Below, piece by piece: positions 1,650-21,588 of a stretch of 64,000 bases of DNA. A model generated the notes under the pieces. The model saw only the letters and a list, made by a program, of their open reading frames with translations. It searched no databases and was not told the origin of the DNA. This DNA is from Candidatus Pullichristensenella stercorigallinarum (GTDB taxonomy: Bacteria; Bacillota; Clostridia; Christensenellales; Aristaeellaceae). The first letter of the stretch is position 1; every line of letters starts with the position of its first letter. The translations under genes and the position numbers were made by a program. The stretch is taken from the NCBI GenBank assembly GCA_018712945.1, contig DVFZ01000051.1, positions 1-64,000 of the forward strand, read 5' to 3'.

Positions 1650-1898
1650 CCCCCAAGGGCAATCCCTTGGGGGTCAGAGCGCTGACAAAGCCTGCAAACG
1701 CAAAAATTGCCCTGAACAAAGAGAAATCAGAGGCAATTTCTGCTTCCTGCGTCAGCTGCCATGCAGCCTGCGGTCACTTACGCCTATGTAAGCTCCCTTG
1801 GCTGCAAGTTTGCTTCCTTGTCTTGCAGGCTTTCTCATCCCTCTGGCAGTCTGTTGACTTTGTCAACATCCTGTCCCCCAAGGGCAATCCCTTGGGGG
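1650..1898. repeat. Family 1 hairpin-array intergenic repeat, copy A, bracketed by two identical 24-bp palindromes
   Basis: CCCCCAAGGGCAATCCCTTGGGGG at 1650-1673 and 1875-1898; core TCAGAGCGCTGACAAAGCCTGCAAACGCAAAAATTGCC... shared with the 12.7 and 21.4 kb copies. Confidence 0.9.
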
Positions 1899-8446: not shown

Positions 8447-8680
8447 AAAAAAACCTTCGCCCCTCCTGGGGCGAAGGCATACTTCGCGGTACCACCCAAT
8501 TTCGCCGGAAAATCCGGCAATCTCAGCGCCCGATAACGGGGGCAACCGTTCCAAACTCATCGCCTGAAAAGCTCCGGGGCGAGCTATCCACGCCGCGCCG
8601 CGCCGCCGGTTTGCAGCTACCCCGGCTCTCTGTGTGCGAAAACGGGCGTCTTTTCCCCATCATTGCCATGCCCGTCTATT
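8447..8680 (-). ncRNA. T-box riboswitch leader of leuA
   Basis: Minus strand carries AATTGGGTGGTACCGCG (T-box antiterminator) followed by the GCCTTCGCCCCAGGAGGGGCGAAGG-TTTTTTT terminator; TATAAT (8678-8683) upstream. Confidence 0.9.
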
Positions 8681-12682: not shown

Positions 12683-12700
12683 GCTGTTGTACAGCGAAAG

Positions 12701-12941
12701 CCCCCGCTTCGAGCGGGGGTTCAGAGCGCTGACAAAGCCCGCAAACGCAAAAATTGCCCTGAACAAAGAGAAATCAGGGGCAATTTTTGCTTCCAGCGTC
12801 AGCTGCACATGCAGCCTGCGGTCACTTACGTCCATGTAAGCTCCCTTGGCTACAAGTTTGCTTCCTTGTCTTGCAGGCTTTTGCATCGCTCTGGCAGTCT
12901 GTTGACTTTGTCAACATCCTGAGCCCCCGCTTCGAGCGGGG
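12701..12941. repeat. Family 1 hairpin-array repeat, copy B, bracketed by duplicated hairpin CCCCCGCTTCGAGCGGGG
   Basis: Hairpins at 12701-12719 and 12924-12941; core closely matches copies A and C. Confidence 0.9.
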
Positions 12942-13218
12942 ATCCGGAGAGCTTAAAGTTATGCCCAGAATCGTCAAATCCTTTAGCAGACGGGAGACGT
13001 GCTGGCAAAGAGCTGCTTTGAGCGGCATCCAGGGGAATAGCGCATGTGCCGCAATTCAGAGCGCGTGAGCGCTGCCGGTTTCATGCCCTTACAGGGCTTG
13101 GTCAAACCGCCGGTTTAGCCAGTGCTTTGATAACCTGACGTATCCCTTAAAATCCCTTTGGCTGCCGCGAACTTTCGCACCCCCGCAACTCCGCACTCCC
13201 GCCCCTTCCCGCACCCCC

Positions 13219-19081: not shown

Positions 19082-19229
19082 CAGTTTGTCAAGATCGTGT
19101 TTTTGACAAGCTCAGAGCGTTGACAAAGCCCGCAAACGCAAACATTGCGAGGCACTTTTGACAATTTTCCAAACCGTCAAAAGCGGCCGGCTTGAAAACC
19201 TTTTGCCGGAAATGATTTTACAGGCGGCC
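19082..19229. repeat. chimeric repeat: Family 1 left end fused to an inverted, truncated Family 2 element
   Basis: CAGAGCGTTGACAAAGCCCGCAAACGCAAACATTGC (Family 1) then GGCACTTTTGACAATTTTCC...CCGGAAATGATTTTACAGGC (reverse complement of Family 2). Confidence 0.8.
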
Positions 19230-21348: not shown

Positions 21349-21579
21349 CGCCCCGGCTTCCGTCGGGGCGTTTTCAGAGCGCTGACAAAGCCTGCAAACG
21401 CAAAAATTGCCCTGATCAATATAGACCAGAGGCAATTTTTGCTTCCTGCGTCAGCTGCACATGCAGCCTGCGGTCACTTACGTCCATGTAAGCTCCCTTG
21501 GCTGCAAGTTTGCTTCCTTGTCTTGCGGGCTTTCTCATCCCTCTGGCAGTCCGTATCCTGACACACCGGCGTAAGCCGG
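21349..21579. repeat. Family 1 hairpin-array repeat, copy C
   Basis: Core TCAGAGCGCTGACAAAGCCTGCAAACGCAAAAATTGCC...; hairpins CGCCCCGGCTTCCGTCGGGGCG (left) and CCGGCGTAAGCCGG (right); lacks the terminal TTGACTTTGTCAA hairpin of A/B. Confidence 0.88.
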
Positions 21580-21588
21580 GGCATTTTG

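Follow-up and report, generated by a model that had tools for sequence, protein, structure and literature searches.

A repeat that lies three times in 64,000 nucleotides of Candidatus Pullichristensenella stercorigallinarum (contig DVFZ01000051.1, positions 1 to 64,000; this whole stretch is called the window) raises the question of what kind of element it is and how it reached its sites. The original prediction placed copies A, B and C at 1674-1874, 12720-12923 and 21371-21563 and described them as copies of a dispersed, non-coding element built from several hairpins, for which no named family was known. We found all three copies as described and refined their limits to 1675-1873, 12722-12921 and 21375-21560, respectively. 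The features on which our analysis rests are given below in window positions.

1650 to 1674, no strand assigned: left copy of the target duplication of copy A, a terminator hairpin (CCCCCAAGGGCAATCCCTTGGGGGT), identical to the right copy at 25 of 25 positions
1675 to 1873, forward strand: copy A, complete element (CAGAGCGCTGACAAAG ... CTTTGTCAACATCCTG)
1675 to 1845, reverse strand: conserved four-helix core (P1-P4) of copy A, purine-rich strand
1823 to 1845, no strand assigned: inner inverted repeat of copy A, which pairs with the left end to make closing stem P1
1847 to 1873, no strand assigned: right-end hairpin of copy A (CAG..GTTGACTTTGTCAAC..CTG), which resembles the 5' end of resident IS1182 elements
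1875 to 1899, no strand assigned: right copy of the duplicated target hairpin of copy A (CCCCCAAGGGCAATCCCTTGGGGGT)
12699 to 12720, no strand assigned: left copy of the target hairpin of copy B (AGCCCCCGCTTCGAGCGGGGGT)
12722 to 12921, forward strand: copy B, complete element
12922 to 12943, no strand assigned: right copy of the target hairpin of copy B, with 1 mismatch in 22
19113 to 19148, forward strand: copy D, a truncated left end (CAGAGCGTTGACAAAGCCCGCAAACGCAAACATTGC) missing from the original prediction
21349 to 21370, no strand assigned: left flanking hairpin of copy C (CGCCCCGGCTTCCGTCGGGGCG)
21375 to 21560, forward strand: copy C, an element that has lost the right-end GTTGACTTTGTCAAC hairpin
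21561 to 21583, no strand assigned: right flanking hairpin of copy C, diverged, resembling the left one inverted

Over the window, the only intact copies matched by the core covariance model were A, B and C, and the R2 scores were 163, 160 and 155 bits for copies C, A and B, respectively. The core of copy A had a fold z of -7.35. The duplicated hairpin of copy B reads AGCCCCCGCTTCGAGCGGGG(G/A)T when both of its copies are combined, and the hairpins flanking copy C were not scored as a direct duplication in the 73-copy analysis described below. The truncated copy D (19113-19148) adjoins a terminator-like hairpin. The right-end sequence of the element, ATCCTG(A), was also observed directly upstream of the left hairpin, both at 1643-1649 and at another locus (L147, G000:C78), which suggests an earlier element at the same terminator, with repeated insertion or loss. 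The window also holds a T-box leader at 8464-8672 on the reverse strand (Rfam RF00230, 96.8 bits).

A search of the organism's own assembly, a draft of 2.96 Mb in 130 contigs, bore out the predicted dispersal, finding about 40 copies at 84-100% identity. With this number of copies, and with 12 end-motif matches compared with 0.86 expected from shuffles, chance is excluded. The element is short (~200 bp) and non-coding, with imperfect terminal inverted repeats, CAGnnnnnTGACAAAG, at both sides. Of six other genomes in the genus, four carry it, and in the family as a whole 39 of 309 genomes hold relatives, representing 15 of 50 genera; nearly all of the assemblies used are drafts or MAGs. A search with Rfam covariance models at the gathering score gave no match for the element; the original prediction likewise knew of no named repeat family that matched. 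The description as a dispersed structured element without a recognised family is therefore supported by searches across the genome and across the order.

The evidence that identifies the element as mobile, and that shows its mode of insertion, lay outside the core recognised originally, in duplications of the flanking hairpin. The hairpin at the flanks differs from locus to locus. We scored direct duplication in 73 copies with both ends, drawn from eight genomes, using as the null the left flank of one copy compared with the right flank of another. The median score was 20, whereas the 99th percentile of the null was 5, and 53 of the 73 copies scored 14 or more, each of them flanked on both sides by its own intrinsic-terminator hairpin. 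There were 52 distinct duplications, 19-40 bp in length, each of which folds end to end as one stem-loop; in 34 of them the first base at the 5' end is already paired, and in 33 the last base at the 3' end is. The outer seven positions paired at 0.79 in register, compared with 0.39 when shuffled and at most 0.47 when the frame was shifted by 1-4 bases. This pairing is highest in register, and so the two cuts lie symmetrically about the dyad of the hairpin. At the duplication, the element typically starts with CAG and ends with CTG, and the target hairpins have a common structure and no sequence consensus.

At orthologous sites without the element there is a single hairpin: the site of L121 is empty in two genomes (G002 and G003), and that of L140 is empty in one (G001). 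A Candidatus Pullichristensenella locus considered as an empty site for copy A (L037) was dropped, as its upstream gene differs. One insertion (L131/L161) is common to two species, and thus copies can be old. When L131 (G000) is compared with L161 (G006), the loop of the right hairpin is inverted in one of them, and the same was observed within L141 and L147; terminator loops seem to become inverted once an element has inserted. Duplicated hairpins also flank diverged elements whose end sequences are different (G173, G259, G261, G162, G380 and G503). No orientation bias relative to the terminator T-tract was detected (26 versus 22).

Taken together, we consider it probable that the element is a non-autonomous transposable element (MITE) with IS1182-type ends, a hairpin-duplicating mode of insertion and a core under selection. 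Its mobile nature and the hairpin duplication are well supported. Repair synthesis of single-stranded stem-loops would duplicate the whole hairpin, and with the whole hairpin duplicated the host gene would keep a working terminator, making insertion nearly harmless. Survival of the terminator at each insertion is inferred, and the direction of flanking genes agrees with it, since 31 point toward the element and 7 away. These directions were called by codon-position GC; a longest-open-frame test is unreliable at this GC content.

The MITE model alone does not explain why the core is conserved, because the ends are normally all that a MITE requires. The closing stem P1, hairpin P2, stem P3 and hairpin P4 are all retained in diverged relatives whose end sequences differ; P1 is formed by the left end of the element and the inner inverted repeat. 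Among the hairpins listed in the original prediction, P2 (GCAAAAATTGCC/GGCAATTTTTGC), CTTAC/GTAAG and the right-end GTTGAC/GTCAAC were supported. The pairings GCTGC/GCAGC and CTGCAAG/CTTGCAG, which made up the first helix set, were better replaced by P3 (CTTGCAGCC/GGCTGCAAG) and P1, the change to P3 being made once distant copies had been aligned. Covariation analysis, which had been proposed as a check, found 29 of 43 core pairs in which both bases had changed in at least one sequence. The covariation score was 0.406, compared with 0.149 when shuffled and at most 0.129 when the structure was slid. Unpaired core positions are conserved as well, and there seem to be tandem G-A motifs.

The core reaches further than the element. 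The core covariance model matched 133 of 397 genomes of the order (52 of 142 genera) and 5 of 398 other genomes sampled from the phylum; no Rfam family matches the core, and a first version of the model gave no match in two near-closed genomes of another genus of the family. The form with insertion-sequence ends and a hairpin duplication was found in the organism's own genus and in G162, G173, G259, G261 and G098, and in other families in G380, G503 and probably G334 and G665. A bare form, bounded by P1 and without hairpin duplication, is the form seen in the majority of distant genomes. Bare cores in head-to-tail tandem were observed at three places (G517:C21:29421-29713, G346:C20:76004-76314 and G030:C4:31648-31973).

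Bare cores without hairpin duplication in many genomes speak against the MITE account. Another explanation is that we are dealing primarily with a family of structured non-coding RNA genes beside terminators, to which IS-type ends were added in some lineages. The strong covariation of the core, its conserved unpaired positions and the occurrence of bare cores in many genera of the order all favour this explanation. So does the count of wobble pairs on the purine-rich strand, the reverse of the strand read originally, where G-U exceeded A-C by 109 to 43. However, the excess lies mostly in P1, which overlaps the ends; in P2-P4 the counts were 36 and 24, and when close copies were counted using the first helix set they were 136 and 135. 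In addition, the absence of an Rfam match speaks against an RNA family, and copies with the IS-type right end, in the organism's own and related genera, mostly show the anatomy of a mobile element. We regard a primary RNA gene family as unlikely, though still a serious possibility. The wobble counts give a weak lean toward an RNA on the purine-rich strand and do not demonstrate it. A promoter on that strand was considered and rejected by eye, as no suitably spaced -10 box accompanies the right-end TTGACA.

On the reading as a MITE with a selected core, the internal four-helix structure is kept by long-term selection. Its most likely role is in the element's own mobility, as folded DNA or RNA; this role is inferred, and the strand is only weakly indicated. 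That the core is a functional RNA or a folded single-stranded DNA acting in structure-guided transposition, with the interior fold also required for mobility, is a proposal that we hold to be doubtful; it would make these elements a class of small mobile elements that depend on more than their ends.

The original prediction had also raised a relationship to a transposase with matching ends, and IS1182-family elements have such ends. The NCBIfam IS1182 transposase model picked out a single intact gene in the organism's own genome, along with about 16 matches to fragments, and Pfam assigned DUF772 and DDE domains to the IS1182-family transposase. The left end of the element resembles the 3' end of the insertion sequences, with a mean alignment score of 8.4 (maximum in 300 shuffles, 2.75), and the small hairpin at its right end resembles their 5' end, with a mean score of 6.3 (maximum in 300 shuffles, 0.75). 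These ends are similar, not identical, and we found no genome with both the element and an autonomous insertion sequence of identical ends. Hairpins also lie directly against the ends of resident IS1182 elements (CAGACCATTGACAAAC and relatives). In the family, the intact copies L246 and L264 are flanked by hairpin duplications of 30 bp and 25 bp. Four of the six IS1182 copies with both ends visible lie between two different hairpins, which could result from recombination, misassembly or a different outcome. No IS1182 hits were found in several element-rich genomes (G022, G261 and G098), and IS1182 in G162 had no recognisable matching ends. With like ends, adjacent hairpins and two intact copies with a duplicated hairpin, we conclude that IS1182-family insertion sequences are the likely mobilisers of the element, with transposase action in trans inferred.

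When the element sequence was sought inside autonomous IS1182 copies, the ends alone matched, except in the relic L213 (G000:C98:49200-50500, 236-620). In this relic, the junction between a shortened element and an IS1182 leader with the N-terminus of the transposase falls inside the element's right-end hairpin; L213 is a possible link to the ancestor. Several IS1182 copies, including L249 and L252, contain at their 3' end a hairpin followed by TTTGT, which could be the transposase gene's own terminator.

Some other route that targets terminators or hairpins might also have placed the element, such as retrotransposition like that of group IIC introns, an IS110/IS1111-type recombinase, a Y1 transposase (IS200/IS605, REP-associated) or DDE families like IS1634 and IS1202. 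All of these favour hairpins or make long, variable target duplications, and group IIC introns integrate beside intrinsic terminators. At our element, however, we saw neither an intron-encoded protein nor an intron core, and the hairpin is duplicated. The ends of the element match resident IS1182 elements with polarity, although the other families were not searched individually, and the duplication tracks the hairpin rather than a fixed length. We consider such a route improbable. That the paired hairpins reflect faulty assembly, or are simply ordinary double terminators, is hardly credible: several copies do lie at contig ends, and L118, L125 and L135 have unlike hairpins and are possibly misjoined, but independent assemblies from many genera show the same pattern, the hairpins of a pair are often separated by a few substitutions, like aged duplicates, and the empty sites carry one hairpin.

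The closest known behaviour is that of IS1272, an IS1182-family member that picks inverted repeats regardless of sequence, terminators included, and then removes them (PMC5678879, PMC4923244). The "stem-loop replacing" transposition of IS1272/TnSha1 shares with our element an IS1182-family transposase, inferred in the case of the element, and a target that is chosen by structure, is often a terminator and has no sequence consensus. In contrast, IS1272 deletes the target stem-loop without duplication, whereas the element duplicates the complete stem-loop, and the element is non-coding and only about 200 bp. Duplication of a whole hairpin was drawn in the IS1272 work solely as a hypothetical pathway b (PMC5678879), and our data fit this alternative pathway. 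The literature that we searched for hairpin-sized target duplications yielded the IS1272 papers only; long duplications recorded in ISfinder for other IS1182 members are not excluded.

Other short repeats share part of this anatomy. QMITE, Chunjie, RUP and BOX (PMC10969869) are likewise short, non-coding, intergenic and multi-copy, with inverted-repeat ends, flanking direct repeats and a foldable transcript; they differ in that our element has a 19-40-bp hairpin duplication instead of a short repeat, and an interior of covarying structure conserved across an order. REP/BIME and REP-targeting insertion sequences (PMC1525189, PMC2817692) are also mobile elements tied to extragenic palindromes, but the REP-targeting elements use a conserved palindrome sequence, whereas the targets here share structure and no sequence.

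We read the element as a variant among known IS1182-type MITEs, set apart by a target duplication the size of a hairpin and by a structured core found across an order. Its insertion shows an outcome that had merely been drawn as a possibility for IS1182-type transposases, in that an entire target hairpin of any length is duplicated, with dozens of natural examples and empty sites, and how a DDE transposase reads the shape of DNA rather than its sequence becomes directly testable. For the order, an unexplained structured core that is absent from Rfam is present in roughly one third of the sampled genomes. For the host, our results suggest that the element may fill a genome with little harm, as each insertion restores the terminator that it hits.
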